Source: Heterotrichella gracilis
Lineage: Eukaryota; Sar; Xanthophyceae; Tribonematales; Xanthonemataceae
DNA length: 54,189 bases
Assembly (NCBI GenBank): GCA_032358255.1
Contig: JAULBX010025953.1
Coordinates: forward strand, 1 to 54,189
Direction of reading: 5' to 3'
Shown: positions 299 through 50,195 of the stretch, piece by piece
How the letters are laid out: every line of letters begins with the position of its first letter
Numbering within the stretch: position 1 is the first letter of the stretch
Program-made: the position numbers and the translations under genes
Notes under the pieces: model-generated
Database searches by the model: none
The model's input: only the letters and a program-made list of their open reading frames with translations
Told to the model about the DNA's origin: nothing

Positions 299-3200
299 AT
301 GGACGGCTCTGGCTCCGATGGTAGCGACGGGGAGGAGGGACAGCAGGGGATGCTGGTGGGGTTCCTGTTTGGGAACGTGGACAAGGACCTGCACTTGGAG
401 GACGACTATCTGGGACAGGTACGAGGAACTATTCACGCAGTTGTTTGTATACTTTTCGGCTGTGTGTTCGGCGTGAACTGCATAAAGGTAGACGCGGGGT
501 CACCTTCCAGGGGTTATGCTTAGGGTGGTGCGATGCATGCATATGGAAATTGTATTGCAAAATATGTATTGCAACCTCAGAAACACTGCACCTGGACGTT
601 GACTACCCGGTACAGGTGCGAGGTTTGATCCTGTATAACTGTAAGGGATGAACTGAGTAGCCGGCTGTGAACAGACCGGTACGGGGTGGTGCAACATGCA
701 CACCTACGATGACGAGTTGCATGCATGCACCCGACCTAGCCACCAACGCTCTTGTGTGACAGTGATCTAGAGGTTCACCGAGTCCCTTGACCCTTCTAGC
801 ATGTTGCACTGTGGTCAAAATGGGTGGGGAACCCCAAACACACCCCGCCCCAGGAGCAGCTCATGGCACCCCTACTCTTTAGCAGCGTTGGAAGAGGTGG
901 TCTAGTTGTGTGGTCACCGCTGCAGCATGCACCTGCATTTTCACGCATTTGCATTTGCATTCTGTGACGATGGTGGTGGCAGCGGCTGTGTGTAGAACTG
1001 TGCCAGTCGCATTGGCGGGGTGTACACTTGTGCTGGTGGTGTGATGCCTGCTCCAGCCACCAACACCAGGGCCTGCTCCTGCCCTTAAGCACCTGACTGT
1101 GCATGCATGATATGGTATTTGGTTGGATATGAGTGCCCTGTGCAGCACTACACCCCTGGGATGTGTGCGGGATGCCAAAGGAGCTCGGAGCATAGCAGGC
1201 AGGCTGGGGCACCCGAGTAAACAACAGTATATATGCGTTGACTTTGCAAAACACCTCGCCAACAACACTGCACCAACTTTGTGCAGGATGCCAAGGAGCA
1301 CCTGGGGGCGCTCAACACAGCGGGCAGGCTAGGGCACGCGCTCAACCTAGAGGTGAATCTCTAAACCCTCACAACCATCATCTTCTCAGATAAACTAGCA
1401 CCTCATCCAGCACCATCCTGCCTGCCTCAGGATCACAATCAAACACACACCCCATCCTACCGCCCTCCATCAATCACCTCTTTTGCTTAAAGACGTACCA
1501 CATCCCATACTCCAAACATATTATTCCTCTCCACCCCTGTCTCCCGCATTCCTGCAAGATACGCCTGCACCATCCCTGCTCCCTTGCACCTTTTCCCTCA
1601 CGCCCCCCTTGCATATGCAGCGCCTGGCAGGGGAGCAGCTGGAGCAGAAACCCAACGAGGAGGAGGTGCCTGTGGATGCAAAAGCGGCTGATGCAGTTGA
1701 CTTTGGTGACGAGGATGAGCTGGCGGAGGAGGGGGCGGCAGTGCCGGGGTTTCTCCCCCCAACACTGATTGGGTATGTACCTTTTCATCTTAGAGGGATG
1801 GTTGGTAAGGAATAGGGTGGCTGCATGGCTCTAGGGTTTAGGGTTCAGGTAATGGGTTTTGATGACGAGGGTGAGCTGGCTGAGGAGGGGCCGGCACTGC
1901 CTGGGCTTTTCCCCCCCACTTTGAAAGGGTGCGTGCCTAACGAGTATGGGATAGCTAACACTGTCTGACATGCTCAGATCAATGGTGGCTTGCTACTTTG
2001 TGGTGTGATATCATTCCCCAGTTTGGGCTGATGGATGGATTTTATGAGGGTCCCCGTTGTTATTAGAGATAGCAGCAGGGAGCATGTCAGTGTAAAGAAT
2101 AAAAGCATCTGCAAATGCACCCAACCTGCACTACCCCCTCCTGGTGAGACCCCTCTGTCTCTGGTGCAGGCACCCCAGCGGCGGCCCCACAGGCTTTGCC
2201 GCTGAGGAGGATGATTATGATGAAGATGAAGGGGAGGAGGCACCCATGGCGCCACCTACTGGTACGTACCCCTTGACAGAATAAACGTAATCAGGTTAGG
2301 TCCACAGATGTGCTGCCCTTCTGTTGCAATTTTGCCATCTCATGCCACCTGTGCTGTGAGCAACATGCATGCACGAGGGGAGATGAGCGCGATTGGTGTG
2401 AGGATACTGCATGCACAGTGGCTGTCTGTAGTGAGGCGGTTTGGTAGCCCTCATGTTTCTACCATTGCACATCTGCCACCCATTCCCTCACCATGCACAC
2501 AGGCGCCCGCCCTCCTGCCTTATTGCTACCTGGCCTGGTGCCCGGTGCTGACCTTGCAGATGGCGGTGTGGAAGGCAGTGATGTGCCTCCACGTGGCGAT
2601 GAAGGGATGGTGGGGGGGTCAGTGGCGCAAGGGGGGGAGGAGGCAGCAAGGGCCAAGGGAGCTGATCTGCCAGCCAAGCAGCAAGGTAAACATAGATAAT
2701 GAAATGGGGTGACGATAACAGCTGCTTTAGTTCAAACATAATTGAACTATGTCAATTATCACGACCTTTGAGAGTTGCACAGCACTGGCTAGCATCCTCA
2801 CGTTGCAACTTCCATACCGCACTGCACCAAAAGCCTACCACCCCCCTTGCCTATATGCGAGCTTGTCTCACAATCGTCCTACAGGTTATCATCCCCACCT
2901 TTCCTCACTCATATAAAAGGGATGATAATGATCACTACCCTTGCTCCCAGGTGATCTTCCCCCCTCAGCCATCATAGCGCGGGTGGGCGACGAGATGCTC
3001 ATTCGATTCTCGGAGCTGTTTGCAACCACGGTGCTGGAGCCGCGCCCACTGCTGGCTGCTGCTGCCAAGGGGAGGGCGCGCAGGGAGGAGGAGGGGGGGC
3101 GGGGGAGGAGGGGGCCGAGGTTGGCGGCGGACCAGGCGGCGATGCTGGCGGTGGGTGGTGGGGGTCTTTGGGAGGACAAAAAACAATAGATCATAAATAT

Positions 3201-6200
3201 ACGTAGTCAGATTGAAGTACAACTAGAAGTACCATACAATAGATATTATAATGGGCATGAAATGTGGTATTAAATCTACTTCGTATAAAATAATTGTATT
3301 GTCATTTCGTTTTATTTTGTTATTCAGTACACCATTAAACGTGTACTTGTGCGTTTCACTGCTCCTCAGCTGTTCTGTGCCAAATGCACTTTTTGCACTT
3401 CTTTGAACTTGAACCAAAACAAACAAATACCAAACCTTTCCTATCCATTCCACAGTCTGATGAGCACCTTGCCGAGCATGAAATCAATGCTCCGCCCGGG
3501 CCCCATGGCGCCCACATGGCGTACCCCGATGAGGGTGATGACCTGGACATGGGGACCAGTGAGGCGGCGCCACGTCAGCAGCAGGCAGAGGAGGCAAGGG
3601 GGGCAGGAGGGGTGGGAATGGAGGGAGCGGGTGGGGGGCGCCGGCGGGTGGCGGGGGGCAAGCACAGGGGCAGGTGGGTTGCGGGTGTGTGTGGGGTGCT
3701 GGTGGGGACTTTCCAGAGTGGGGCGTGGGTGCTGCTTAGGCTTGTTACGAGTGTGTTGGGTCATGCATGTATAGCCTGTGGGGTATTTTTGCACCATCAG
3801 CTGTGGCTGCCTGTTACAGTAAAACATTTTTCTTTTTTTCATTGAGGCAGTTACGTCAACGTAACTGCCTCCCCGGATATATTAACCAACATTTTTCAAG
3901 CCCGCTTATGTCACCAACCACCCCTGTCTTTCTGTGCAGCCTGCGGGGCCGTTTCCTCCCAGCGCAGCCCCTCCCCCCTCTCCCCCCTGATGCCACCCCC
4001 CAGGGGGACACCACAATGTGGATTGAGGCAGGGGAGGGGGATTGGCAGGCGCTGGCCCAGCTGGACTGGGAGAGTGCAATCCTGTGGGGTGCTGACGAGG
4101 CGCCACCTGGCACCGCCATCCCCTCCCATGACCAAGGGGTGGTGGTGGAAGGGGAGGAGGAGGAAGGAGAGGAGGATGTGGGGACGGCTTCCATGGCTGG
4201 GATTGAACCTGGGACCTCTGCTGTGGTGGTGGGGATTCCCGCGGCAACAGCTGCGGGAGTTGAACCCGAGACTCCTGCTGCTGGGATGGGGATTGAACCT
4301 GGGACCGCTGATGCTGCAGTGGGGATTGAACCAGGGACATCCGCCGCTGCGGCCGGTTTCCCAGGGGAGGAAGCCATGGTGGTGGATGCTGAGAATGGGG
4401 GGGAGGTGGCTGGTGGTGCGGAGGGTGCGGCACTGGTGCCAGCGGGCGAAGGGGGGCCTGGGGCTGTTCCCCAACGACGGTTTTTCCCCCTTCCCTCCCG
4501 CTCTGTCTCCCTCGAGCCCCTTGCCCCCCTGCCGGAGGCGCATCCCAGGGTGGGGAGTGGTGGTGCGGGCGACGGGGTTGAGGGGGGGCGGAGGAGGGTG
4601 GGCAAGTCCACCCCGCTGCAGATGCGCATTGAGGCGTGGGAGGATGTGGTGCGCGCGCAAACCCTTCCCAAAACCCTGCAAAGCCCTAGACAGCAGGGTC
4701 CACATATGGTTTGGGATGCATTTATTTGCAAAATGGCACACACTGTAGTAGGGGTTGTACCAATCGTTGCTGTACAAAGCTAGTGATGACACAGCATGAT
4801 GGAAGCTGCGTCAGGCAGTTCTGATGCTACTGCACAAATCAATTTGACACGGTACTTCAGAAACTAAAACCCTAAACCATAAACCCTAAACCCTGGGGAC
4901 CAATACCCTAAATGTAATTTATTTTCAAAAAAAGGCCCCAAAAAAAGGGAATTTTAAATGTTTTAATTTTGCATTAAAATTTTCACCCAGAGTTTACTAG
5001 GCCATATTGCCTGATTTGCGCAATAGGCTTAGAAGGCAGGGTGTTGAATTAGCCTTCGATTTTAATACTGAGTCTGCTGTTGTAATTGTACCCAACGTTT
5101 TTACACTACAATTATACTCACACTAACAATTTCTACCCCCTCCCCCCACCCCAGGCCCCACACCCGCACCAGTCCCTCCCCACCCACCACACACCCCTCC
5201 CAGAGGACGACACCTGGATTTACCAAATCGACTGGGAGGGCACCGGTCCCCAGCAGGGCGCAGGCCGATCCAAGCTGATCCTGGACACAAATGACCCCCA
5301 GATGGTGTTTGAGGCGGTGAGGGGCATGGAGCTAGCCATCTTCAACCAGGCGGCAGCAATCATATTCCCTCCCCGTCCCAAGGTGGGTGGCGGTGGTGTT
5401 ATATATACCCCTTGATGGTGTGCGCGTGGGTAAATATCCACATATGCCTCGCTAATTGAACCCTACACCCAACACCTCTGCTGCACGCGCCTGGAGTTTC
5501 CAGGTTGACTGAATACATCAAAAGGCGACTCAAAATTGCCGCTGCCTGTGGATTAGGCAAAACCAAAGCTCGTAGCTTGGAGCTCTCAAATGCAAGCTGT
5601 GCCCCGCCCCACTCCACGTACTTCCTGCCACTTTATCCCCCACACCTTGCTACCACACTGACCAATACCCCACCTGCAGCTCAAAATCGCCGCTGCTCCT
5701 GGGCTGGGCGACACCAAGGCTGCGCAGGAAGTTGCCCGCCTGAATGTGTCCAAAGACCACCTGTACCAGCAGCACCCCAAGCGCAAGGGGGGGAAGGACT
5801 GGGGGGGAGGGACGGCATGCAGGCACGCAATGCTGGCGCTGTCGCTGTCCACGCTGCCCATACGCATGCCAGAGGTGGGTGGAAAACCCTGGAAGGAAAC
5901 CCTAGGATTTCCTGTGGCGGTTGCGCTGGCAACGCCTCTTCTTTGCATACCAGAGGTGGGCAATAACCCTGGCAAAAACCCTTAGGCATGCAATGCTACC
6001 CCTGGCGCTGTCCACGCTGCCCATACGCATGCCAGAGGTGAGGAAACCCTGGAAGGAAACCCTAGGATTTCCTGTGGCGCTAGCTCTGGCAATGCTGTCC
6101 ATGTGCATGCCAGGGGGCTCTAGCAAAAACCATACAATCTTGGTGGATATTCTTATGTTGGCAGTGGTTATGTCTCTGGCAGCGCCGCCCACACGCATGC

Positions 6201-9200
6201 CTGAGGTGGAGGAAACCTGGTGGAATCCCTGGTGGACAGGCCAAAACCCTAGAACTTAAAGCCCTGGGTGGAGTCCCTGTGGTGTATGGTGGCATCGCAA
6301 GGAAAGGAAAATTGCCAAATGTGCTGTATCTTTACCCCCCTCACACACGCTGTTTCCTCTCAAGCCCACCCTTTCCATGGCAGGATGAGTTGATCCACCG
6401 GGTGCGGGGGCTGTGGGTGCCCCCACCACCACCCGCCCGGCTGCGCATGAAGGGCCTGGGGGCAGTGACAGGGAATGGTGCGTGCCGGTGTGGTGGTGGG
6501 ACTAGTTGAATCCCCTTCTGGTGTGGTGCACCTTGCCTGGTGGTGCTTGTGTTTGTGCACATGTGGTGTGTGATGTGTGGGTTTGGTTGTGAGAGTTGTG
6601 TGTGGCTGGTGTGTGTGTTAGCTTTACGTCTGGTGGTTGTGAGTGTAGGTGCTGTTTGAATGGAACGCATGAGTCATCAGGATCAGCGTGTGTCAGATGT
6701 GATCAATCTTGCCTCCCACAGGTGGCAAGACAGCAGTCCAGCTGGTCAGCAAGTCAGGGGCGCTGCAGTCATTTCCTTCCCCAGCACACCAAACTGATAG
6801 CCTGCAAATCCCCCTCTGGTATACTCATCGCCTCTGTTCCCCACCCCAAACAAATTGATCTACCTTCTCCCCGCAGGTGGCAAGGCTGCAGTGAAGGTGG
6901 TCAGCTTGTCAGGGGGGATGCAGTCATTCAAGGAGGTGGTGCTGGGGGAAACGGCTGGTGCAAGCCTGTGGGAAACGGTGCGGATTGGCAGGGTTGATAA
7001 CGGGAGGTGGAGGTCCATATTTGTTTTTTTTAATGAGTGGGGTGGTGGTGATGCTGTGAGGGGTGGGCCCATGTGGTCTCAGGCGGCAGTCAATGCAGGG
7101 ACAACTGCTTCCAAACCCTGACCCGCACCCTTGTCTCCTTCCATCCCACACTGCACTTCACCCCCAGTGCCCTACACCACAACCCTACCCACCCACCCAT
7201 CCACCCACCTGTTTCCCCCCCTTTCTCCCCTGTAGGCCCTTGCCAACAAATTTTCCAAGGCGGCCGGCGACACCCCCACCCTCCTCTACCCCGACCGCCC
7301 CCCCGTGCGCATCGAGCTCACCTCAAACCTGGCCCAGGCTGGGATCAGGGATGACGACCAGAAGGTCACCCTCTATGCGGTGTTTTCTAGAATTCACCCC
7401 TTGGCATCAGCGGTGGCAAATACCATTCCCTCCCCTGATTCGCACCTGCCGACCAGGCCCCCTGCGGCGTTTGCGGTGAGCGTGGTTTATTTTGTTGGCG
7501 CTAAATGTGTGCACAATTCGTTTTGATGTAGTTACTTGTGTGCAGTGTTTGTGTGCAGTGCATGCGTGCAGTGTAAGTAGGTGTTAAAAAGGGTATGTGG
7601 GGTTGGATGTGTGTGTGTGCATGTATGCGCATGTGCGCACATGTGCGATCCCCCCTGCCCCCATATCTCCCCTGCATCCACACATCCCAACCCGCTCCCT
7701 GCCTTCCTCGTCAACAGAAAAAGAAGGACTTCTCCCCCCGCGATGGCCACATTTTGACCCTTGAGTACATGGAGCGCTGCCCCCCGCTGCTGTCTCGACC
7801 CGGCATGGGTCTCAAGCTGACCACCTACTACAGGAAGAGGGACCCAACGGATGCAGGCCATGTGCAGCTGGCTAACGGTGCGTTCAAAAACAACCCTGAC
7901 AAAACCCTAGAACTCATGTATTATTGGGGAGGGCGAGAATCCTAAAATGTGGTTATTGACTATAAAAGAATCCTGCCTTGCAGCAGCGAATGCCCATGCT
8001 CATTGGAAGTCGGGGTGCATCATCCTGAAATAATGACAATTCTCTGTACATCATGCTGGTGTCCTTTCTTGTACACACACAAATTTCCTCTTTATACCTC
8101 AATATATTATTTATATTCATAGATATTCTCTTTTGCAGCCGACGCCCGCTGGAAGGTTGGTGTGATCCAGCCCCTGCAGCCTGATGATGACTCCCCCTTC
8201 CTGGGTACCATGCGCCCCGGGTCAGCCCAGCTGGCAGCGGAGTGCAACCTGTTCAGGGCACCGGCATTTGCTGCCCCTCCCCGCGCAACCGATTTCCTGC
8301 TGGTTAGGACCCCATGCGGTGCGTATGTGGGGCCAACAGGGTGGGGGCGGGGGGCGATTGTGGAAGCGGATGTGTATGTGTGACATTGTACTTGTTTGAG
8401 TGCAGAAAACAAGTCCCCAGTACACATGTTTTACTATGAGTATGCCAGCCTGTAAGTGTCCATGCGTAACAAGCCTGCCCTACCTGGCATAACCCACTCC
8501 CCGCCCGTTTCCCCCAATACCCACACCCTCCCTTCTCCACCTCAGGGACCATGAACTGCTGTACTACTCCCCGTGTCTTTTCCCTTAATTCCGGCCCATC
8601 CCTCCTCTGTCTCCCCGTTGTCTTTCCTAATCCCCCCATCCCTTCTCTATCCCCAGGGACCATGTACCTGCGTGAGCTCACTGGCGGTGTGACTGTGGGC
8701 CAGCAGCTGCCGGGGGTGAGGGTGCCCATGCCAGGCTCTAAGGAGGAAAGGTAGGGTTTGGATTAGGGTTTTGGGTTGTGATTGTGGTGTGATTTGGATT
8801 GTGACCTGGATGTGGTGGTGGTCTTGAGGGCAATGTGTCACCGCAAATGATGATATTTTCTTTAACTTAGTAATTAAAAAATCCGTCACAGGGAATGTGA
8901 CCCAAAGTCTGGCATGCGCATCCTCCAAATTGCTCTTCCTGGTGCCTGCCCATGGGCGTGGTTGTAAAAGAGCTTGGGTAACTGCAATTGTAACCGGAGC
9001 CGTCACCATGTTGGCAATAGACCCCAAATGGTCTACCGCAGGGACTACGAGGAGAGGTGGCCTGGCTCTGTCGGGCCTGTGTATGATCTGAAAAGGGAAT
9101 ATTTATCTGTAACTGCACATGTGAATTCCATCATAAATGCCCCAAACCCTTCCGCAGGGACTACGAGGAGCGGCGCCTGGCTGTGTGGGCGTGGCGCGAG

Positions 9201-12200
9201 CTGCGCCAGCGCCAGTCCAAGGTGGAAAAGAAGGGGTCTGGCGTGGCGTGCGTGGGGGTGAAGGAGGCCGCCGAGCTGTTCCCTGGGGTGCCCGAGGGTC
9301 AGCTGAGGCAACGGCTCAAGGAGAAGTGCGAGCTGGTGCCCGCCACGGTAAGGGTTCTGGGGGTCTGGGGTTAAGGTTTTGTAGTGCGGGCGGTGTTCCT
9401 GGCGGCCTTAACAGCGCTTAAAAACCTTTGCAAAAGTGTGAGCTGGTGCCAGGCAGGGTAGGGGTGCAGGGTTTGGTGGTTCATGGTGATTGTAGGGTCA
9501 AAAGGAGGGAGGTTGATAAGGGTGTATAGGTTTCCATTGTGTTGCGCAAGAGTGGTGGTGGGGTGGACAGGGATTGTAATTGGGATTTGGGTGTGCCCGA
9601 GGGCCACCTGAGGCTGAAGCAAGAGTGCAAGCTGGGCAAGCTAGGGTTTGCCCTTTGGCCCCCTCACGTACCACTCCTCAGGCTACACTATCATCCCACG
9701 CACCACACTGTCTCACCCCCACACTGTGTCACTGCTCATCACCTCAACCACACATCCGCAGGCCGATGGCGAGTTCACCCTCCCCTCCGGCGCACGCATC
9801 CCCTCAGAGCAGGAGCTGCGCAAGCTGTTGGCACCCGATGGGGTGTGTGCGCACGAGGCCACGGCGGCTGCGGTGGCCAGGGCGGGGGCGCTGGGCATGT
9901 CACACCTTGAGCGATTTGTGGGTGTGAAGGGGGAGGACCTGAGGCTGGCGGTGGAGCAGCTGCCGCAGGACCAGGTGGGCGGCAAAACCCTACTAGAAAC
10001 CCTACTTGGTGCGTCGTAAGGGGTTTGCGGGTGTGGAAGGGGGGGACCTGAGGCTGGCGGTGGAGCAGCTGCCGCAGGACCAGGTGGGCGGCAAAATCCT
10101 ACTGGAAACCCTACTTGGTGCGTCGTAAGGGGTTTGCGGGTGTGGAAGGGGGGGACCTGAGGCTGGCTGTTGAGCAGCTGCCGCAGGACCAGGTGGGCGG
10201 CAAAACCCTACTAGAAACCCTACTTGGGGCATCGTAAGGGGTTTGCGGGTGTGGAAGGGGGGGGAGGGTGAGGCTGGCTGTTGAGTAGCTGCCGCAGGAC
10301 CAGGTGGGTGTCCTGGTGTGGGTGGGTGAGCGTGGGTGGGGCGGGAGTTCCGCAACCCCACCTGCCGCTAGGGCCTGAATGAAACCCTGCACGTGCTACC
10401 TGAGATGGTCATATCTGTCCAGTCGGCATCCTGATGGTTCATGCTCATCAACCAAACCATTTAAAGCATCTGTAAAATCCCGGGTTGACGCTTTCTTGCA
10501 ATCCCTTTGCCCGCAGGATGTGCACACCGCTGCCGCTGCCCTGGAGCTTGCGCTGGTGTCTGCCCCCTGGTCGGTCACCGACGTGTACCTGGGGGCTGTG
10601 CGGGAGGGGAGGTGGGCAATTCAGCTGGCTGGGCCTGGGGACCCCACTGCAAGGGGGCATGGATATGCATTCACAAGGGAGCAGAAGAGGGTGAGTAAGG
10701 GTGTTGCAAGGGGAAGGAGGTGGGTTATGGGGGACCTGCATGTCACCATGGGAAACGCCAAGGTTGGCCGTGCGCTGCCCAAGGAATATGGAGTATGTAT
10801 GTGGGAACAAATTAATATGAGCGGGCGGCCCCACCGCCAGGGGGCATGGACATGCATTTGCGAGGGAGCAGTAGAGGGTGCATGGGACCTGGGCTGGTTG
10901 GCGGGAAATAAGTGACGGGTTGATAGAGTCAGGATGGCCACAGCTGCAATTATATCCTGGGATTGGATCATAAATGCCAAGGGGTTGAGAAACACACGGT
11001 GCATGTTTTGATTTTTGATTGGTATGTTCTTGCATGTATTACCCTGCATTGCAAGGGCCCGCTGAGTAATGACTTGGCGTGTCAGTGGGATTCCTGTTTT
11101 ACAGAAATTTGACCAGGGTTTTTGCCCCGCTTTTCTCAGGGCTTTGCTGACCTAGAGGGAGTACCCTGGTGAACCTGGTTAGGGTTTCCACTCCCTGGCT
11201 AGGGTTCTGCCCCAATTTTTAGGGTTTTGCTTCTGCTGCAGGGCCCTGCTGACCTGGACGCCGTGCCCAAGCGCCAGGCTGGCAGCATCCAGGGGAGCAA
11301 TGCGGATTTGAGGAGGCTGGGGAACGAGGCTGCGGGCGCGCTCCTGCTCAAGCTGGGGGTCACGCAGGCAGAGATAACGGGTAGGGTTTCATCAGAGGGT
11401 TTTGGGAGGTGTTGGGGCTAAGAGGGCAGGGTCTGAAAGGGGCAAGAACACGCTGGGCTGTATACAGCGCAGCCAGTTGTGCCCCATATAAAGCAGCATC
11501 AGACCATCTCCCAGCACGACCCAACTCATGCCATGACACTCTCCTCCCACCCACGCATGGTAGGGACACCTGAGGGAATGACCAGCCTCCGAGTCTGGCT
11601 CTTTCTCACTCTGCCTCTTCCTCAACCAACGCCCTCGTTCTTGAGATGAGCAGTGTAATAATATATTTATTTTGTCATTTTATTTTAGTCTCACACCCAC
11701 CCGCGCCTGCCTCCGCAGTGCTCACCCGCTGGAGCCGCATCGCCCTTGTGCGCCAGCTGTCCAGCGCTGCAGCGGCGGACGGCGGAGAGGCGGCTGCTGT
11801 GATTGGCACCCAGTACGCGCGCGCCACCAGGCTGTCAGCCGCTGAGCACCAGAAGGCTTTCCAGGACAAGAGCCAGGCAATCTTCGAGAAGCAGGTGCGT
11901 GGTGGGCTAATAGTCATATTGTTATGTAAACGGCAATACATACTTCTATAATCATTGGTATTGCCCATGGTAAGGGCAGTGCAAGTTGGGGTGGATCAGA
12001 TGGCCTTTTTTCATAGGGGAAGGTGTTTGTGGAGGTGATAGGGAGGTATGCACGTGCAACCCGGCTGTCAGCTGCTGAGCACAAGAAGGGTCCAAGAGTA
12101 CGAGAGCCAGGCCGTCTTCGAGCAGCAGGTTGGGTGCGAGGGCATCGGAATGACCACAAACCCTACCCTACACAGCAGACCACACCAAAATCCCCACTTG

Positions 12201-15200
12201 TCATCCTTTACTCTCTCCCGTCTTGGGAGCTTCTCAGCCTTTTCCCACACCTAGAATGCAACACCCAAATGGTGCTTTCCTCCTCAGGTGAAAATCCTGA
12301 GCCACCCTCCCTTGGCCGATGAATTCCTGGATGAGCCAGGGGGGTACGACAGTGGAGGGGATGAGCTGGAGGCTGCCATGCTCGAGGAGCTGGGGGTGGG
12401 AGGCAGGAAGCAGGCACAGGTGGGGATGGTGGGGGGTGGGAGGGTGGGGTGGGGGGAGGGTAACTTTGCATACCACCCACATGGATTGAGACTGAGAGTG
12501 CTTTGTCTACACATCTCCAGCATGAGATGTTTCACATTGGTGCTCTTCTCCTGTGCAGACCCCTGAGCCTGATGCTGACGAGGCTGCTGAGCTGGCAGAG
12601 CTGAGGCGGGCAGGGTTCATACAGGGGGGGGATGGCGGCAAGGGGGGCGGGAAGGGGGGCAAGGGGGGTGCCAAGGGGGCAGAAGGTGGTCCCAAGCCGG
12701 GGGACAAGCGCATTCGGCGGGTGATCACATACCATCAGCCTGACGGGGAGGTGGTCACCAGGTGGGTTATAAAAGCAATTAGGAAAGACAATGCATGAAC
12801 AGGGCCTGAGTGGGACCGATTTGCATTTGAGTGATGGTGGCGGAAAATCTATTTTTTACATAATCCTTCCAAAAAGGGCACGCGCTTACGCCCCACTTTT
12901 GTGCTGTGCAAAATAATGATCCAAGCAAGTACATTGCGTTACATTTCACTTGCATGTAGTTCCTCACATCCTCCCCCACGCCCACCCTTACCCTATTCCC
13001 AGGGAGATCATCTACACCGACAGGGATAAGGTCTACGCCCTGCATGCCCTGGTGAACCGTGAGAGGGACGTGGGCGGCCCCTGGGGATTTGGGAAAAGGG
13101 TGATCAGGGGGAGGAAAGTGAGCGGGGGCGCCTACTTGCAAGGGGAGGCAGGGGGGAAAACACCCCCTGCAAGGAGGAAGCCGGGGCCCAAGCCTGGGTT
13201 CAAGCGGGGTGGCGGCGCGGGTGGCGGGGTTGGGGGTGAGAGGGCGGCCAAGGCAAGGCCAGGGGGGCGGTGCTCGGCGTGTGGGAGGGTAAGTCTCAAG
13301 CTGGCACTGGAGGTATTTGTGGATCCACAGGAGGGTGTTGGCTGTCCCTTGGCTACCTCACCTTACTTGATCACCGCGCCGCTTGTTCACCAACAAGCTG
13401 CGGAGCCCAATATAAAATAGTATGTTTTATTTTATATACATTTATTACTATTATCAGTTTATAAAAGGTCACTGGCAATGAATCCCTTTTGGATGGGTTA
13501 TTCTGAAGAGTGGGAGGATGCGTGCTTCTTTTATGACTGTGCTGTGTCTGACAGAGTGCGCAATCGTGTGCCTGACTTCTACCCACGTCAGCTTCCTTTA
13601 GACATGCTTCTTCTTACCTAACCACGTGACACTAGTATGATCACATGCTGATCACGTGCATAACCCTCACCATGCTGATCACGCAATTTCCCTGTAATGT
13701 GATCACATGCTGACCAAATGTCTTTATTCTCCCCAGACCGGCCACAGCAAGGGGAGCGAGGCCTGTCCCCTCAACGCCGGCATGGGGAGCGGGTCAGAGC
13801 CAGAGGAGGAACCAAGGGTAGGGCGCGTGCACTTGTGATTGAAACCTACTAGCATTTAAAAATGGTCACGGTAACCAGTGACGGGTGGTTTGCATGGCAA
13901 TTTGTATGGACACTTGCACAAACGCCACAGCAGCTTGCATGTAACCATAATCCTACTTCACAGGGATCCTTTCAATACTAAAGAAAAATGTCTTTCACAT
14001 GCGCAATTGGCATATGATATTTTGCACAGCCACCATCTCCCAGGCATTGAGCCCCTAACCTTGCCCCAGGTGGGAGAGGATGAGGAGGAGACAGACGAGG
14101 AGTTCGAGGCGACCCCCTCCCCGCCCTCCAGCCCCAAGGGAGGGGGCAGGAAGCGCGCAGCACCCGCAGGCCCCCCCATGGTCAGCCCAATCAAGCTCAA
14201 GCTGAATATCGGGGGGGCAGGGGGGGGATCCATCTCGCTGCAGTCACCCTCCTCGGGGATGCTGTCTCCACAGGGCTCCATGGGCCTCCGGTCAGGAGGC
14301 AACAAGCGGTCCAGGGTGAGTGTTGCCCTTAGCTAGGGTGTGTGTGGGCCTCGCCACTGTGCTTGCCCCTAGCTGGGGTGTACGTAGTTATGGCTAGAGC
14401 GTGTGTGCTATTAGCCAGAGGTGGGACGTGCGCAACTGTGATGCCTTCCATCCTGTACCCACACCCGACCAAAGCCCTGCAAAGGGCCCGTAACACCGAC
14501 TTGGAACCCTCCCGTCACCCGCAGGGCGCTACCCGCGGCGCCCTCTCCTCCAAACGTGCCCGCCGCACCATCAACCTGGCCGCACTCGAGGACAATGATG
14601 ATGATGACGACTATGTGCTGGAGGACTCCCCCTCGCCCCCCCCTTCTCCCCCTTCACCCCCCTCGCGCTCGCTCTCCCTGGTGTCCAAGGGGGTTGCCAA
14701 GAAGGGTGCCACGGGGAGGAAGATCCTGAACAAGTCCGTGCTGGCCAGGGTGGTGAACGAGGTCAAGAAGAGCAAGGAGTGGAGGATCTTCATTGTGAGT
14801 AGAATATATCTGGGGGGGATATGTGCTTGGGAGATTGGGGCATGCGGGGCATGAACCAAGTTTTGGGATGGGATTGGCGGATGGGAATGGGGGATTGTAT
14901 ATTCTCCATTGCGATGGGACCACGTTACATTGAGTACCAACACAGGACTTGTTTGCGTGCTGTGATCTTGGCTGTACCCTACCCAAAACCCGCAAGTTGT
15001 CTGAAAACCCACAGATGCCATATTGGCGGCTGCTGAAAACCACACTCCAGCCAATTCCAATTAAAGATAGGGTGTGGGATGCTTGTTGGCCTTGCAACAA
15101 CCTCTGATTAGGGTCTGCTTAATCCTGCATATTTAACAAAATATCTATCTTGACAAAACCTTGACAAAATCTTGATACTATCCTCCCCCTTCTCCCCAGC

Positions 15201-35554: not shown

Positions 35555-37804
35555 ATGGCGGCCAGCACAGCATCAACCTCGGGGGTGCGACGCATGGCGA
35601 TCGCCGCGCCAATGCCATCTCGATCCGGGAGGCTGCATCACCACACACGCACAGCGCATCCAGCAGTGCTGGGCGGGGGGAGTGCGCTGTGCAGGGGGGA
35701 AACCACACGGGTGAAACGGGGGGTGAAGGCTGAGGCAGCGGCGACGGGGCCTGAGGCGCCCCCAAAGGTAGCGCTTGCATTTTGATGCTCGGAGGTTTAC
35801 CCTAGGGAGGGTGTTGGCTGGGCTCTTGCAAGATCATGATTGGTGCACATGTTCCCCCCTTGCAGCACCCCATGACCCCTCCTTGTAGATAATCCTCCCA
35901 TCCCGCTGCAGTACTCCGGTGCTTTGCCGGAGTGAAGTAAAATATAATTGTTTACGTACTAAATCGTTTTTACTCCCGCTGCAGGACCCCTTTGCTGAGA
36001 AGGAGGTGTACAACGACAACGCCTTTGACATGTTTTTCATAAACTACTTTGCTAAGAAGATGAGCCAGCAGCTTGGAAGTGCGTGGCTCGGGGTTGGGGC
36101 TAGGGTTTTGTGCCACTTGGTTGCTAGGTTTGAGGAGGGCTTTGACGTGTCCTGCACCCCAGAGTGCATGGCTAGGGTCCGGTGCTAAGGTTTGGCCTAG
36201 TTGCTTCTTAGGGTAGAACGAGGTAGGGTAGAATGACCTCCCTGTGCCACCTGGACAGACTGCATGCACACATGATCAACACCCTCTATGAACTCGACTC
36301 ACCTCCCGCCACCCTCTGCCTCCAGACAAGCCCTACCAGGCCGGGTACGAGGGTTTTGTTGACCTGAGCAAGGAAATCATGCGGGGCCGCAACACGCGGC
36401 AGCAGCAGGAGACGGTGGCGGGGGTGCTGGGGGCGCTGCTGCCCCCACAGGCGCCGGAGAGGTTCAAGAAGTGGTTCCCGCTCAACCAGGTGGGTGTGGA
36501 GGCGTTTGGAGATGGGCTTTTGGCTAATGATGGTGAGGGTTTGGGGTGTAGGGTGCTTGGGCTGCTGATGCTGGATGTTGAGTGGTTCCTGCTGAACTAG
36601 CTGATAATTTTATAGGGTAAAGTCCCAATTCAAAACTGGAAACCTCGACTCCTAACCCCAACCCTCACCTGCATGATCTGCCTCCAACTCCTCCCAGTAC
36701 CGTAATAGGGCCCCTAACTCCCTCCCTCTTGCTCCCACAGTTTACGGCCGAGTTCAACGCCCTGATCACCACCCTAGGGTTCCGGTGGCTGGTTGGCCCC
36801 GCTGAGCTAAAGCAGGTTGAGGTGGACTTCAAGGGGGAGAAGCAGACGTGGAACAGCGGGGTGCAGATCAAGAAGTGCAGGTACCTGGAGGCCAGCGGCT
36901 GTGTGGGCATGTGCGTCAACATGTGCAAGGTAAGGGAGGGGTTAATGTAGGGTTTGGGTGGTGGGTGGGGGAATGTGCGGCAACATGTGCAAGGTGAGGG
37001 AGGGGGCGTTATCTAGGGTTGGGTGAAGGATGGGGGCATTTGCGTGAAGCTTTGTAAAGGGAGCCTTATCGAGCGCTCTGGTAGCTGATGTTTGAGATGT
37101 GCGTCTATTGGATTCATTCATAATTTATTTGCCCCACATTTCAAGCAGCTGACGGCAGCTGCCATGAAGTGTGGCATCTGCGCGTTGTGTGCATTTGACG
37201 CGTGCTGAGGGAAGGAGGGTGGGAGCTCATAGTTTGGGTGGGATGGGTCTGCGCATGTGCGCCCACCCATGTGCAGGGGAGCCACTGTGGCATGGCATGG
37301 GATGTGGCTGGTGGACTTTGGCACTGGGAGCCAGGAAAGACCTGTTAGACTTCTGTACCTAGCGTATCACATGGGTTGATGGGTCTAGGGGTTGTACAGC
37401 CATTGCGCATGGTCTGGCAGTGCACCTGCTCCCACAATGCACGCACACACAAAAACACCACCAAAATCTGTCTGCACCCTTATCCCACAACCTACACACC
37501 CACCACACATGTCCGCACCCGCCTCACACACCCTCTCTCCCCCCTGCAGCTCCCCACCCAGACCTTCTTTACCGACAATTTCGGCCTGCCCTTGACCATG
37601 AACCCCAACTTTGAGGACCTGTCCTGCGAAATGATCTTCGGCCAGGCGCCCCCCTCTGTGGAAGAGGACCTGGTGTACAACCAGCCCTGCTTCAGCATCT
37701 GCGGGCTGGGTGACCGATCCAAGGTGATCGCTTGCCCCAAGGTGGATACTGAGGCGCCCATCAGGCCGGGGGTGGCGGTGGTGCCTGCCAGCACTGCGGG
37801 GTGA
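35555..37804 (+). CDS. D27: Beta-carotene isomerase D27-like protein, plastid-targeted, 5 exons
   Basis: D27 proteins are plastid iron-binding isomerases; the plant enzyme converts all-trans to 9-cis beta-carotene. Exons: 35555-35767, 35985-36078, 36326-36489, 36741-36929, 37550-37804; 304 aa, phases compatible, start in CCACCATGG context. Residues 1-70 are rich in Ala/Ser/Arg with almost no acidic residues, a likely transit peptide. The DUF4033 core follows: VYNDNAFDMFFINYFAKKM (exon 2), EFNALITTLGFRWLVGPAE and the Cys-rich CRYLEASGCVGMCVNMC (exon 4), KLPTQTFFTDNFGLPLTMNPNFEDLSCEMIFG and CFSIC (exon 5). All the family's signature cysteines I know are present. Algae generally lack canonical strigolactone output, so a carotenoid-isomer or apocarotenoid role is likelier; it could be a D27-like paralogue rather than the orthologue. 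Confidence 0.93.
36965..37062 (+). repeat. Two decayed copies of D27 exon 4 donor edge in intron 4
   Basis: GAATGTGCGGCAACATGTGCAAGGTGAGGGAGG (36971-37003) copies the exon 4 end and donor (36908-36940, GCATGTGCGTCAACATGTGCAAGGTAAGGGAGG). A weaker copy, GGGGGCATTTGCGTGAAGCTTTGTAAAGG, lies at 37032-37060. Confidence 0.85.
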
Positions 37805-44380: not shown

Positions 44381-44677
44381 GAAAGGTGCGCTTTAGGAGT
44401 CATGACGCATTAGCAATAAAGTTGGATATTTATTTTTTGTGTATTATGTACGCTCACGTGGTGCACCCCATGGGGTTTCTAAACCTTAGGACGATTTGAG
44501 TGCAATGGCCTGCAGATCTGGCCAGGGATGTTGGCCATCCTTTTGGGCCAAGCTGGGACCCTCTGGTGACCCTCCAGGGGGAGTGAGTTGCATTTTGTCC
44601 GTCGCCAACACACTCTTTGGTGACCAGAAAGCTTGATTTGACACGCGTACATGCGCTGCAGTGTTGATGTCATGAAC

Positions 44678-44748
44678 CTCAGGACTCCTGCCCACAGGTC
44701 TGGCCGCTGCAACCAGGTCTCCTACAACCTGTGGGCAGGAGTCTTGAG
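44678..44748. repeat. Near-perfect hairpin, 22-bp arms
   Basis: CTCAGGACTCCTGCCCACAGGT (44678-44699) and ACCTGTGGGCAGGAGTCTTGAG (44727-44748) pair with one mismatch around a 27-nt loop. Confidence 0.92.
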
Positions 44749-44869
44749 CGTCACCAGCAGAAATACTGCAAGGTGCTGTTGAACGCATGTAAGCAGGTCA
44801 AATCAGGCTTTATAGGTTAATCGGCGCAGCATAGCAAAGAAGGAGCAGGACAGACAATAGGACTTGCAG

Positions 44870-45050
44870 GCAGCTGTTAAGCGGAGGGAGAAATGCAACC
44901 TGGCCAGAAAGCGCAGGACGCTGGAGAACCAGGTGAAGATTGAGCAATCACAGCACATACGTGTCTGTTGGTGCTTGCTCAACCTTGCCTTGCCTGTCCA
45001 GTGTCCTCCGCTTCTTTGCCAGGTTGCCTTTCTCTCTCCGCACAGCAGCT
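44870..45050. repeat. Inverted duplication with coding-like arms
   Basis: The left arm 44870-44947 and right arm 44975-45050 are diverged reverse complements of about 75 bp. The left arm on plus reads KRREKCNLARKRRTLENQVKIEQ; the right arm on minus reads RREKGNLAKKRRTLDRQGKVEQ. Substitutions are largely conservative, which suggests a formerly coding basic/coiled segment duplicated in inverted orientation. The family is not recognised. Confidence 0.8.
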
Positions 45051-46697
45051 GTGCGCAGGTCCTCCTCAGTGCTGGTAAGTATTATCACCCCATGGCATGC
45101 GGCAGTTGTTTCAACTACGCAGAGGTGAGTTATGTAGCAACAGCGGATTATCTTCTTCTTCATGGTTTTGTTATTTGAAGGGAGCATCCACGAATATGTA
45201 GGGGATTGTAATACCTAATTGAATTACCATGTCGAGTGCAACCTGCAGTACTGGTCGGTCACATGTATTGATGGCTATTAGAGTTACCCCTACTTCATCA
45301 TGCATATGACCAGTACCACGTCAAACATCATCTTCATGCTGCGGAGTACAGCATACATACAGGGCTTTGTCACTCCCTTTCCATTTCAGGGTGCTCAAGG
45401 TTGCCCTGGTAGGAGGGAAGTGAGCCTGTGGAAGGCTTCCGAGTGGGAATCTCCCGATTGGAAGCCTCTCACAGGACCATTCCTTGACATCCAGGGCGAA
45501 CCTGGGTCCTCTTGAGTCAGGGCAGATTTGAGCACCCTTGGTCCATGAGGTTGGATCCCTGCTGCCCGAAGGGTTCTCCATTTACGGCTTCCAGGGCTTT
45601 GCTTCCAGTGAGCAACTCAGTGAGCAGTGCAGCCCTGAATAGAACCTTCAAGTCGTGTGTGGAGTTCAGTTTGCCCAGCAGGTAGCAAATCTCATGAACC
45701 GAGGTCGCAACTTTGCGCAATTTGTGGGCACATTTGCAGTTTGAAGCTCCCAAAGGTGCTCCGGCGCATGACATGTCAGTGCACTCGACAGTGTGCACAT
45801 GGCATGGCATTTTTGCTTTCATATTATTACAACATTCCGCATGCATATCGATTGTGGTATAACAACAATAATAGTATTGTGGTCCATTGATATGCATGAT
45901 TCATACTCTAATAACCTAAAGACTCGCATCCCCGCTTGAGATAGGCGCTTTAGCAACTAGCATAGGCCACCCCCTGTAAGATATCATTGTCAACACGAGA
46001 AGGAAAAGAACGAATCATTGGATGCACGATTCAGTATACCATTGGTATTTAATATCTAATTTAGCATGTACGAATTCTGAAATATAATTATCATGGAGGC
46101 ACACTACCGGACAATCTAGCGTTGAACGTGCGCAACATATCCTTGTCACTAAATTGATATGGTGCAGAACTTGCCACCAGCATAGTACTCCGGTTCAATG
46201 ACTTGAAATGATTCCGAGCAGTAATATTTGCCTAGCTTGCCTAGCCAAATGTTCTTGCGCTGCACTACCCAAAAACGTGGAACTGATGTCTACGACACTT
46301 GTGGCCTATCCTGCATCACCACCTACATGCAGGAATCGGTACCTGTGCGCTGGCCCAGCCGATTGCTTTCAAGAAATAGCAGCCTGCGCTGACTAAGTAT
46401 GTACAATTACCTATTTTTGGAAAACCGAAGTTGAAGCCAAATCCTATCTGCTGATGTGTCCTATGGGGCAACAGGTTTAAGAGGGAGTCTTGGTAATAAA
46501 GGCCCAAAAATTGACAGCGGCAATTGCAGCACAGCCTGGCCGCCAGCTTGAAACAACAATTATAATCCTACTTGAAAGCATCCCCCGCAAAAAGTGCCTT
46601 CTGCCGCGCCATGCCGCGCTGGAATCACTCGTGATAAGAACATGCTGTGCGAGGCTGAAGAGTTCTAGCAGTTGCAATGTGCCTAAGCCGTTGAAGA

Positions 46698-49600
46698 CTA
46701 CGTAGTGCGCTCATTCTCAATAACAACATCAGGGGCAAAATCTTCCTTTGTGATGCCATCCCTTCCACCCTCATCCTCAAAAGTGCCATCAGGCCGGTAT
46801 GCCATCAAGGCAACCCCATCACCATGAGGATGATGCTCATAATCCTCCCCGCCAGCATCACCAATAGTAGTATCACCCCCTGCCACATGGTACCCCCCAG
46901 CCCCACCCGTAGGCCGTGGGGGTGAGGAGTGGGTGCTGCCACCCTTGTCTGCCGCCACCGCCACCACCCCACCCGTGATGAGCGCGCCCCCCGCCAGCCC
47001 CCACCACGACAGGGGTTCGTGGAACAGCGCGATGCCCAGCACGTGGCCGCAGCCAACCTGGGCAGAAGGAAATACAAAATTTATTTGGTCAGTCTACCAG
47101 CAACTAACGTGTATTTATGTGTCAAACCGATGATACCATCTAAGTTTTATTCCCTCAGAATTGCCATCATGAAATTTAGAATAATTCATTTGATTTAGCT
47201 GGTTGTGGCCAGCCTTTGCGTCAGGAGCGCTAGGCAATCGTACTTTGGTGCGGTTACATAGCCCTCCAAACTTCAAAGAATGTATAAAAGAATTATTATG
47301 CACGCAGAGCCCTAAAATTAGATGAGATGAGCGTCAAGGCAATCCCCAATGCACAATCTAAACCCTAGCTTAGGGTCATTTACCTGCGCGCAGCTGACCG
47401 CTGCAGCCTTGGATGGGGCAGCTATCTGGAACCCCCGGTTGGTCAGCATCATTGCTGCAAATGAGATGAGTGCCAGGGTGATGAGTAGCACTAGGTCAAG
47501 AGGGGAGGGAGCCAGGGGGCGCCCACCGACGCCTGCCGCCATCAGGGGGATTGACCAGGCTGTGGCGATCAATTGGAACCAGAGGGTGACTGTGAGGGAG
47601 GATTCGCGCCTGCATTGGTAAGGGGTGGGAGGGGGGTGAAGAGTGCGGCGGTGGTCGTGTGTGGTATATACAGGAGTATGTGTGGATGAAATTGTATGCC
47701 ATGTGTAGCAAAGCGTGCGTTGCGGTGGTCATGTATGAGTACGCAGGTGTATGTGTGCATGAGATTGTATGCCATGTGTACATCCAAAGTCATTGTCATA
47801 AAACCCGTAAGGTCTTGCGATAGCACCCACCCACCTGCCAATGAGTCGTATGGCCAGGAATGTGAGCGAGGTGCACAGGGCAGAGGCCAGGTCAACAAGG
47901 GTGCCTGCAGATGTGGGCAAAATTGGGGCATATACAGGGGCAGATTTTGAAAAGAAAGGTGCACAGGGCAGAGGCCAGGTCAATAAGGGTGCCTGCAAAT
48001 GGGAGCAAAACGGGGAAATAATGGTGGGGCATTTTTGAAGCTTTATTGGGTAATAATAGTTTGCACAATCAGGGTCTCGTGCGAAACAAAAAAATGCGAC
48101 GGCTTGCTGGCAGTTCCTGGTAGTTTCCCACTTTTTGTGAGGCCTGGGGGGTCATTTGCCAGTGATATGCATGATATCTTACCATGCATGCGCAATCGTT
48201 TCCCCAGGTAATACACGACAGCATGCATGTGCATCCATGCAAATTGATAGTGTGGAACAGGTCAACCACCGGTATGATGCGCAGTGCACCACACATCCAT
48301 CATGCGTCGCATGCGCTCCGGTGTGCCATATATCACATTTAAATAATTGCCATACATCACATTAATTAATTGCCCGCATGCATGCCCATTCCCCGTACAC
48401 GAATTCATTCGTGTGCAATCCCTCCCCTCCTGGCTGCACCCACCTCTCACCCTCCGCACCCCCCACTCCACCCCTCCTCCAAATAGCGCAGGGGGGTGCG
48501 CGACCGCCACCACCCCACTCACCGCCGCAGCCACCCCCACACAGGTCCCCACGCCAGGGCGGTCCCCCAGCAGCAGCCAGGCCAGCAGGGCAGTGAGGGC
48601 GGGGTTGGAGAAGCGTATGGTGACCTGCGACACCAATTTAATATGAAACGAAATAATTGTACAAGTGTTATGCATTTTATGTTACAGCAAAATCAATCAA
48701 TTTATTGACATAAAATTAGATTTGCTCTAAAGTAACAAAATGTATCAAATAAAAAGGTTGTAGCCAATGTGAGCCAACAGCAATTACCAAGATTTTTTTG
48801 TTGATAAACTGTGATATTTTATCCTCGGTTACAGGAGATGAAACAAATAAAATAAATGAACTGCAGAGCACGCCCACCAGCCCACACGATGCGGGGACCA
48901 AGTCAGCAGCCACATCAGAAGGCGAGGATTAGAATTGAGTAAAGGTAAAACGCAGGTAAACCACACGCACCGCATCTGCCAGTGGCAGGTCAGTGAGCGC
49001 CCAGTAGTATAGGGTGAAGGCTAGGGTTCCAATGCTGGCCCTGGCTGCCAGCAGTGCCCAGTGGCGGCGCTGGCCCAGCAGGCCATGCGGGTGGGGGGTG
49101 GTGGCTGCTGCGAGGGTGAACAGGGTGCCAAAGCCGGTGCGGAATGCCTGTGGGGGGTGGGGGGTGGGGGGTGGGTGCGGAATGCCTGTTGGGGGTGGGT
49201 GTTGCAGCTTGTGCAAAATGCCTGCTGGGATTGGTGGTTCGGGTGGTGGGGAGTGTGCCGGAGGCTGTGCCCAGTGGTGCAGGTTGTGGGGGTGAGGGAT
49301 GGGAGGTGAGTGTGTGGGGAGGGGGGATGTTGCAGCTTGTGAAATTACCTGTGGGGGGATGGCGGAGGCCACCACATGCATGGGTATGGGTTGCAGCACA
49401 AACCCCAAACTCGTCAGTGGATGCACTGCATTGTTGCATGACATTAGTGCACTGCAAAGCATTGTTTTTGTATATGGTGGGAGGGCGCGTACTATGATTT
49501 CGAAGACCGGTACCCGGTGGCCGATGACCTTGACAATCGTGGACCCTAGGGCGAAGAAAGCAGAGGCAAGGGCAACGCAGGCCAGGCCATTCCCCCAGAA

Positions 49601-50195
49601 CCACCTGCGTAAGCGACCCTCACACTGGGTTTGTTGGCAAACAACATATTACGCAATGCAAAATGAATATACACCTTTGATAGCACTGGTCACAGTATCC
49701 ATAGGTCGAGGAGGACCACTGGTTTCAAAGGGTGTGCTATGCATATACCCACAGGACATGACATGCTGGGTGATACTACAAAATTCCAGCGAGTGGGTGG
49801 ATATGCAGTATTCTGAGGTGGGTTTTTGAAGAGGGTTAAGATATCCTCCTGCAGAGACTTGCCAGGTGGCAAAACCACGGTGATGCATAGCACTGGATGG
49901 TCACTCACCTTGCCACGCCAAAGGAGGTTCCCCGCACCGGCATCGGCACCCCTGCAATGCTGTCTTCAACTCCACCCACTGCCACTGCCAACGCCCCAGC
50001 ACTGTCTAGCTTCCCACCCTCGCTGACACCAGCATCGGGGACGTCATCTGGGTCGAGCAGCGCACGCAGTGGGTGTGACTCCTCGTCTGGTGGGGTCTGT
50101 CTCTGCCAGGGGCCACTGTTCAGTGGAATGGCATCGACATCGCCGCCTGTGTGTCCGCCCACGGCGGCTACGCCTTGCATACTCCCCACATGCAT
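46698..50195 (-). CDS. EamA/DMT-superfamily membrane transporter, 7 exons
   Basis: Drug/metabolite transporter-fold protein, probably a SLC35G-like or plant EamA-type carrier; substrate unknown. Exons in transcription order: 50195-49909, 49604-49493, 49147-48971, 48624-48444, 47904-47835, 47609-47384, 47057-46698; 470 aa, phases compatible. A hydrophilic N-terminus (about 95 aa) precedes about ten membrane segments in two EamA repeats: WFWGNGLACVALASAFFALG, FGTLFTLAA, ARASIGTLAFTLYYWAL, FSNPALTALLAWLLLGDRPG, VGVAAAVSGVVAVA, LASALCTSLTFLAIRLIG, LTVTLWFQLIATAWSIPLM, LVLLITLALISFAAMMLTNRG, GHVLGIALFHEPLSWWG, GGALITGGVVAVAA. LPLADA...P and FHEPLSWW match the usual EamA repeat motifs. The start could instead be the ATG at 50180. 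An inverted partial copy lies at 53140-53830. Confidence 0.88.
47940..48000 (-). repeat. Decayed copy of transporter exon 5 with acceptor, in intron 4
   Basis: GTGCACAGGGCAGAGGCCAGGTCAATAAGGGTGCCTGCAAAT (47958-48000) copies 47873-47911, the beginning of exon 5 with its acceptor (minus strand CTGCAG|GCACCCTTGTTGACCTGGCC). It lies upstream in transcription order. Confidence 0.9.
49120..49375 (-). repeat. Ladder of transporter exon 3 acceptor copies in intron 2
   Basis: The true exon 3 edge (plus-strand GTGCGGAATGCCTGTGGGGGG at 49138) recurs as GTGCGGAATGCCTGTTGGGGG (49177), GTGCAAAATGCCTGCTGGGA (49213) and GTGAAATTACCTGTGGGGGG (49340). Three decayed acceptor copies therefore precede the exon in transcription order, embedded in G-rich sequence. 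Confidence 0.85.

Follow-up and report, generated by a model that had tools for sequence, protein, structure and literature searches.

Introduction

Why should introns carry worn copies of the exon edges that lie beside them? The question is raised by a stretch of 54,189 nucleotides from Heterotrichella gracilis (contig JAULBX010025953.1, C345 in what follows; the whole stretch is referred to as the window), in which a sequence-only reading had noticed degenerate copies of the neighbouring exon end, here called echoes, in the introns of five unrelated genes, and had proposed a shared process of local duplication across exon-intron junctions, with later decay of the copies. The present analysis covers the window and 25 ten-kb stretches from nine other contigs, in total 304 kb or 0.4% of an assembly of 68.5 Mb in 903 contigs. 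It supports the proposed duplication and points to chromosome-end machinery as a possible means by which breaks at exon-intron borders are repaired. Genes were modelled by a hidden Markov model (HMM) trained on the sample itself, from sequence alone, and 364 introns entered the analysis, each 60-1200 nt long and with flanking exons of 30 nt or more.

Introns match their own adjacent exon edges

An echo was called when an intron matched its own exon edge with a score of at least 32; the threshold was applied to 294 introns first, and five loci (L029-L033) were held out. Over the window and the 25 stretches, 65 of the 364 introns match their own adjacent exon edge in direct orientation, the source being the upstream exon in 46 and the downstream exon in 24, with both in 5 introns. 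In the first 294 introns, upstream edges gave 43 matches and downstream edges 22, compared with 0 and 1 for the same edges reverse-complemented, 5/1470 and 3/1470 for random exons (8/2940 together), and 0/876 and 2/876 for non-adjacent edges taken two or three introns away on the same strand of the same locus. Echoes therefore lie next to their source exon, in direct orientation, far more often than random, non-adjacent or reverse-complemented exons would provide; the outcome that would have spoken against the early proposal, adjacent matches no commoner than matches to random exons, did not occur. The held-out loci gave a weaker signal (echoes in 5/70 introns, 0 with reverse complements, 3/700 with random exons).

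A scan of the window that does not depend on gene models (ungapped, 20-500 bp apart, score at least 16, rows of simple arrays, among them the AAAGA run at the contig end, being counted) found 54 local direct pairs, against 0 in each of three locally shuffled copies and against 9 inverted pairs; at larger offsets it found 1 pair at 500-980, 0 at 5000-5480 and 0 at 20000-20480. Introns with an echo have a median length of 396 nt and those without one of 285 nt; the intron growth proposed by the sequence-only reading might produce such a difference, although long introns are also bigger targets. The share of echo-bearing introns differs between contigs, being 54/227 in C345, C875 and C112 and 11/137 in the others (C772, C901, C553, C835, C508, C37 and C824; p 1e-4, with a grouping made post hoc).

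The echoes of the window, with their host genes, are as follows.

299..16469, + strand: TAF1-like gene, host of most window echoes (own model; DUF3591 in Pfam); the model was cut at 16469, and the HMM prediction ran on to 18148
586..615, + strand: echo of exon end 389-418, donor type (7/400 in the null described below)
1171..1215, + strand: echo of exon start 1287-1340, acceptor type (0/400)
1702..1782, + strand: source, comprising an exon end, the donor and the first 10 intron bases
1858..1938, + strand: echo of 1702-1782, 80% identity
5529..5570, + strand: echo of exon start 5680-5721
5821..5956, + strand: source unit, exon end 5821-5874 and intron start
5984..6116, + strand: echo of 5821-5956, 85% identity, with an additional copy at 6171-6230
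6700..6773, + strand: echo of the acceptor region 6856-6928 (intron tail, AG, exon start)
9033..9079, + strand: echo of 9149-9193 (acceptor and exon start)
9434..9471, + strand: echo of exon end 9324-9361
9588..9635, + strand: another echo, from the exon of the 9434 echo (9284-9336)
9915..10308, + strand: 109-bp unit repeated 3.6 times, with exon end 9915-9974, donor and an intron start with AAAACCCTACTAGAAACCCTA
10829..10880, + strand: echo of 10642-10693, donor
12046..12130, + strand: echo of 11813-11896, donor, with indels
15808..15878, + strand: echo of 15703-15773, donor
16054..16117, + strand: echo of 16257-16320, acceptor
16180..16226, + strand: second echo, of exon 16281-16327
21606..21686, + strand: HPAT gene, echo of 21840-21920 (intron tail, AG, exon start), with one in-frame stop
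30235..30275, + strand: bZIP gene, weak echo of 30348-30388 (41 nt, 78%, including intron tail; the exon part alone is not significant)
36965..37044, + strand: D27-like gene, tandem echo of 36901-36979, 64-bp period
47957..48039, - strand: EamA transporter gene, tandem echo of 47869-47951, acceptor side, 88-bp period

The array at 9915-10308 is the clearest example of tandem junction copies in the window; in our reading its later copies are intronic, though the HMM called bits of them exon. Each site named by the sequence-only reading was compared with 400 draws of random exon edges, a pool that also contained the true exon. In the TAF1-like gene, 13 of the 15 places named beat this null, the weakest being that at 586, whereas those at 8545 (87/400) and 11110 (71/400) did not. 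The claim of five host genes holds for TAF1, D27 (36965), the transporter (47957) and HPAT (21633-21686), and is weak for bZIP (39/400 for the exon part of 30235). Further places in the HPAT gene are marginal (echo 21764, 14/400) or fail (donor echo 21578, 115/400), and the transporter site at 49150-49185 is likewise marginal (16/400).

The copies span the junction

With a gapped score of at least 44 and a period of at least 50, the sample yields 102 repeat pairs: 64 exon-intron, 18 exon-exon, 14 intron-intron and 6 intergenic. Exon-exon pairs and periods above 300 bp aside, the median period is 123 bp (quartiles 99-167.5). Among the 64 exon-intron pairs, 42 lie on the donor side and 22 on the acceptor side, and in 59 the source reaches its own exon edge while the copy is intronic. 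In these 59, the aligned part has a median of 42 exon bases and 22 intron bases, and a typical aligned copy takes in the splice site together with some 30-55 bases of the exon edge and 10-45 of the intron. The best 30 of the 64 pairs by exon identity comprise 10 contiguous tandem copies (seam between the copies of 0-5 nt), 12 with a telomere-like seam and 8 with neither; direct head-to-tail contiguity is thus present in 10 of these 30 and is not a property of all events. Adjacency, direct orientation, the spanning of the junction, the tandem arrangement often seen in young copies and the pattern of change in the echoes (given below) together support local duplication across exon-intron junctions followed by decay.

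Such a form bears on the idea that the introns themselves were born here, by tandem duplication of an exonic AGGT (the Rogers model) or as introner elements. Tandem duplication does occur at these introns, as do telomeric motifs with splice-like words, but the copies cross the junction into the intron of the same side, from exon plus intron to intron, rather than running from an exon end to the acceptor. The signature of an AGGT duplication, with the upstream exon end at the acceptor and the downstream exon start at the donor, is absent from 59 of the 64 pairs. Nor did a genome search, which skips very common words, find a family of near-identical introns for the three echo-bearing introns queried of many: each matched at its own locus only, including intron 9975-10516 with the 109-bp array. 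Birth of the introns by either route is accordingly very improbable.

A few cases depart from the common form. The pair 1781/1906 of L020 runs from exon-intron to intron-exon. At L017 948-1434 and L016 1804-2052, two short exons, modelled at 60 and 27 bp, are repeated whole in tandem, flanking intron included; these are possible tandem alternative exons.

Junction copies are commoner than in simulations of an even process

In a first scan of 200 pairs, 96 were exon-intron, where random placement would give 58, and 17 were intergenic, where it would give 51. This expectation ignores decay, and it was followed by a forward simulation of uniform tandem duplication with one-sided decay and indels, a design used because exon-bearing copies decay on one side only. 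It speaks to a simple explanation of the pattern, namely that ordinary tandem duplications are evenly spread, that exon-edge copies merely stay visible for longer, and that the telomere motif described below is a separate feature of introns. Conservation on the exon side is real, and the 21 pairs with an identity of at least 0.95 are indeed near random placement (exon-intron 6 vs 5.4 expected, intron 5 vs 6.4, intergenic 4 vs 5.5, exon-exon 6 vs 3.5). Yet the observed ratio of exon-intron to intron to intergenic pairs is 64:14:6, while the simulation gave 1148:965:797 and similar ratios in other settings. Evenly spread duplication produced about 1.1-1.5 exon-intron pairs per intron pair in all settings, and 64 to 14 were seen; the binomial p values for the excess at junctions are 2e-5, against the most favourable setting (a share of 0.59), and 8e-8. 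An even process also leaves aside the concentration of telomere-like sequence at seams and, genome-wide, just downstream of donor-like sites. We consider it a rather unlikely, though serious, account of the data. Candidates for the cause of a junction preference are nucleosome edges, R-loops and the G-runs that follow donors.

In no event does exon make up more than 0.59 of the period, whereas the simulation places 40-44% of events above 0.6. This ceiling is tentatively ascribed to competition between splice sites, in which exon context and proximity reportedly play a role (Reed and Maniatis, 1986).

Echoes decay while exons are conserved

Differences between echo and exon are distributed over the three codon positions as.101,.088 and.216. 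This distribution had first suggested that the echoes are constrained, which parsimony did not confirm (p ~0.16): over three copies, changes confined to the echo number 25/23/33 and changes on the exon side 6/4/15, in a sum over 16 echo pairs that share some echoes and are not all independent. Echoes thus decay without a significant codon pattern, and exons change mainly at third positions. The sequence-only reading had stated that many echoes have stops or indels, which is only partly borne out, an in-frame stop or frameshift being present in 17 of 64. Where the alignment covers the splice site, the dinucleotide is kept in 31/37 echoes for GT and in 21/21 for AG, and echoes might conceivably serve as the decoy splice sites that the sequence-only reading proposed. 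The AG count was considered as a sign of selection on echo splice sites and was judged not significant after correction; the correction is needed because the exon-side site is fixed by definition, so that only one copy can lose its AG.

These data bear on the proposal that the echoes are in truth functional exons, used alternatively or in mutual exclusion; in its favour one could cite the largely kept splice dinucleotides and an overall excess of synonymous differences. At one donor junction (L019, 6434), 9 of 9 differences between echo and exon are at third codon positions, and this copy is probably a true exon duplicate that the gene model overlooked. The 64 exon-intron echoes, however, copy one exon edge and not a whole exon with two splice sites and an open frame (the 18 exon-exon pairs stand apart); besides the stops and frameshifts, their periods fall into the classes 0, 1 and 2 modulo 3 in 22, 16 and 26 pairs, and the changes private to echoes have no significant codon bias. 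Conserved proteins also align across the junctions with the echo left out. In the D27-like gene, the D27-like_C profile is complete (1-88 of 88) across the echo junction, with the echo skipped. In the TAF1-like gene, the human TFIID subunit 1 chain 4rgw_A aligns, with gaps, to residues 35-324 of a six-exon piece and spans five junctions, four of them with echo-bearing introns (the junction residues in both genes are reckoned from exon lengths). It follows that at these places the copies called real are the conserved ones. As a general explanation, alternative exons are improbable.

Telomere-like sequence at seams and intron ends

Five-fold TTTAGGG starts within the first 10 bases of seven contigs among the matches listed (C70, C140, C526, C609, C717, C770 and C824), and TTTAGGG/CCCTAAA is therefore taken as the telomere unit of the organism. 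The sequence-only reading had made no mention of this repeat at the seams. Sequence was scored as telomere-like by telomere 8-mers with one mismatch, and seams were scored when at least 12 nt long. Two seams of the TAF1-like gene illustrate the result, their positions being counted from the list of spacers.

1830..1849, + strand: telomere-like tract of the TAGGGTTT type in the seam between the 1702 and 1858 copies
5975..5983, + strand: telomere-like seam AAAACCCTT immediately 5' of the 5984 echo

In the 52 of 64 events with such a seam, telomere-like 8-mers cover 18.1% of the seam, compared with 5.7% at matched positions in echo-free introns (1000 draws, sd 1.4%, maximum 10.9%). Cover reaches 55% in the nine seams of 12-30 nt. 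Scrambled units gave 4.5-5.8% in five of six controls and 11.9% in one that is G/T-rich. Seams of intron-intron pairs have a cover of 0.063 (8 pairs). The orientation of the motif depends on the side: motif-bearing seams are C-rich in 13 of 13 acceptor-type events, and 7 are C-rich and 10 G-rich among those of donor type. A G-rich TTTAG upstream of an acceptor would presumably be spliced to and hence purged.

The association also holds when it is viewed from the telomere-like tracts. Tracts of at least 12 nt are flanked by a direct repeat (score at least 32) in 69/232 intronic cases and at 39/696 control positions; by zone, the counts are 29/86 vs 20/258 near donors, 20/52 vs 7/156 near acceptors, 20/94 vs 12/282 in the interior, 1/47 vs 0/141 in intergenic sequence and 1/14 vs 1/42 in exons. 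Several tracts may belong to a single array, and events are therefore fewer than these counts suggest. Tract density per kb is 3.36 in the donor zone, 2.03 in the acceptor zone, 1.03 in the intron interior, 0.57 between genes and 0.18 in exons. In the introns of the window and of L009-L033, AACCCTA occurs 153 times where trimer statistics predict 9.0 (~17-fold), and the telomere motif is concentrated at distances of 10-40 nt (donors) and 10-50 nt (acceptors) from the splice site. At least 12 telomere-like bases lie within 60 nt of an end in 101/344 introns of at least 120 nt, compared with 26/236 intron middles, and the motif is carried by 47/65 introns with an echo and by 124/299 without.

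The same arrangement recurs throughout the genome, where an exact donor consensus is followed by AAACCCTA at 5-35 nt in 1586 matches and at 75-105 nt in 614, and by TAGGGTTT in 2306 and 774 matches, respectively, with 7-13 matches for reversed-pattern controls. These are counts of matches and not of donors, as one donor before a telomere run counts repeatedly and the consensus alone is no proof of a splice site. Among the matches listed, ladders of such sites can be discerned by eye (e.g., C15:16491/16595/16699, C12:125981/126091 and C18:52107/52198/52287), and neighbouring sites 40-250 bp apart form 9 pairs in the 304-kb sample, where chance would give 0.93.

It might be objected that the motif is the cause and not an insert, i.e., that telomere-like motifs are selected intron signals (G-runs near donors, a CCCTAAC branch point near acceptors) whose runs stall replication and so lead to tandem duplication. 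GGG is dense after donors, CCCTAA and CTAAC peak 20-30 nt before acceptors, and in 23/48 events the motif is found outside the second copy as well. C-rich motifs, on the other hand, peak 10-30 nt after donors too, where we know of no role for them. Seams moreover exceed position-matched echo-free introns threefold and exceed the counterpart region as well (cover 0.283 vs 0.148, p 0.006, 48 events). Selected signals as the source of the duplications therefore appear doubtful. As to the peak of CCCTAA and CTAAC 20-30 nt upstream of acceptors, it is where a branch point would be expected, and C-strand units of the telomere repeat may have been recruited to that role.

Proposed repair of breaks at junctions

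The explanation that we favour, by a modest margin over its being wrong, is that recurrent break repair at exon-intron junctions duplicates the junction, often with telomere-type additions. A staggered break would run across an exon-intron junction; its ends would be extended by telomerase, or by a fill-in of the type carried out by CST, a telomere complex, with Pol alpha-primase, and would then be rejoined. The product would be a short duplication straddling the junction, in many cases plainly tandem, with degenerate TTTAGGG/CCCTAAA units often in the seam. The gene would go on splicing at the copy joined to the exon body, and the other copy would stay in the intron and decay. Selection on splicing would then set which duplications survive, namely those with a short exon part and, upstream of acceptors, those with the C-rich telomere orientation. 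Break initiation, the action of telomerase or CST/Pol alpha-primase and the selection on splicing are all inferred from sequence patterns, and the enzymatic steps are guided by mammalian work on telomeric insertions and on CST/Pol alpha-primase duplications.

Several observations weigh against this explanation, or confine it to part of the events. The aligned intron part is short, with a median of 0.38 of that expected (30 events) compared with 0.60-1.00 in simulation, so that some copies may be dispersed rather than full tandem units. In the youngest class (identity at least 0.88) the junction excess is weak, with 9 exon-intron, 6 intron, 2 intergenic and 6 exon-exon pairs, and part of the bias may thus reflect a faster loss of intron homology than was modelled. 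Synonymous differences number 156, where a simulation with neutral echoes gave about 95-107, so a few echoes may be real coding exons. The motif does not appear to be needed for every event, since 18 of the 52 seams of at least 12 nt have no telomere-like 8-mer and 12 of the 64 events have a seam shorter than 12 nt. It lies on both sides of the second copy in 18/48 events and only outside it in 5/48; it may therefore have been copied along with the rest of the unit, and at most some of the events point to an insertion at the seam. Over 26 loci, the share of echoes shows no significant correlation with telomere density (rho 0.33, p 0.10), and the held-out contigs are poorer in echoes than the first set (60/294). 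Finally, the gene models come from our own HMM and from sequence alone, and a single genome was read, so each event is seen only with its copy in place.

Relation to known systems

The nearest parallels are the interstitial telomeric sequences of mammals, described as short runs of the host telomere repeat inserted at internal sites during the repair of double-strand breaks (PMC2246262, PMC7215372). In the passages of these papers on telomeric loci, a target-site duplication is reported at 6/130 rodent, 4/25 primate and 3/66 horse loci and is ascribed in the horse paper to staggered breaks, and the 31% of human sites that are intronic are called compatible with random insertion (PMC2246262, PMC7215372). 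As in that family, the motif in H. gracilis is the organism's own telomere repeat, and duplication at the tract, an optional feature there, is found here as well. Duplication concerns a minority of loci in mammals, and the placement of the human sites is compatible with random insertion; here, by contrast, the tracts crowd into the 60 nt next to intron ends.

Cas9-induced breaks in human and mouse cells can give rise to small tandem duplications, which have been attributed to fill-in of the break ends by Pol alpha-primase under the guidance of CST (PMC8355091). They are likewise short tandem copies, although the abstract and outline of that study mention neither a telomere repeat in the join nor a relation to splice junctions (PMC8355091). 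Tandem genomic duplication and double-strand break repair have also been put forward as routes of intron gain (PMC3443670, PMC2891723, PMC4974935), and one review states that in Daphnia short direct repeats flank 43% of gained introns (PMC3443670). Local duplication and break repair are shared with the present case, but there new introns arise in exons, whereas here existing introns copy their own edges. Tandem exon duplication, which may yield mutually exclusive exons, is also a local duplication of exon sequence inside a gene; it differs in that mostly one exon edge is copied here, that the copy decays and that periods are not biased to multiples of three. In titles and the beginnings of abstracts, with subscription papers mostly outside this scope, no description of the pattern was found. 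The insertion of telomere repeats at breaks and the short tandem duplication are each known by themselves; nothing in the literature searched described the two as concentrated together on splice junctions.

Other features of the window

Pfam confirms HPAT, D27-like_C, EamA and DUF3591 in the genes of the window; in the bZIP gene, bZIP_2 is just over the cut-off and bZIP_1 below it. The first ~80 bases of the window (1-85) recur at 40 or more places in the genome with 81-100% identity and are perhaps the end of a mobile element. Two similar gene-like stretches, read as - strand, flank the HPAT gene (17369-19035 and 25956-27544); by eye they are F-box-like with a leucine-rich appearance, and the HMM split the first between strands. 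A gene-poor stretch contains inverted repeats with arms of 59-100 bp (38712-38897, 41197-41346, 43240-43501 and 44859-45063), decayed gene-like pieces and a 29-bp tandem array of 4.6 copies (43913-44043). The contig terminates at 54113-54189 in a perfect AAAGA array of 15 copies, probably the point where the assembly stopped.

Significance

Neither the way in which introns lengthen nor the reason for the difference between their ends and middles is settled. The junction duplications described here form a graded series of events in one genome, from more than 95% identity to barely visible, with a telomere signature that points to a repair route. They also amount to a natural experiment on duplicated splice sites, from which the exon lengths and repeat orientations that are tolerated can be read, and they link telomere enzymes, break repair and gene structure. 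A broader proposition, which we hold tentatively and with somewhat less than even confidence, is that a mutational process is constantly at work with a preference for exon-intron junctions: repair of the telomerase type would duplicate the splice junction and join the copies by telomere repeats, and introns would thereby grow and turn over from their ends. If this is true, intron ends would be among the main places at which telomere sequence enters the interior of the chromosomes of H. gracilis.

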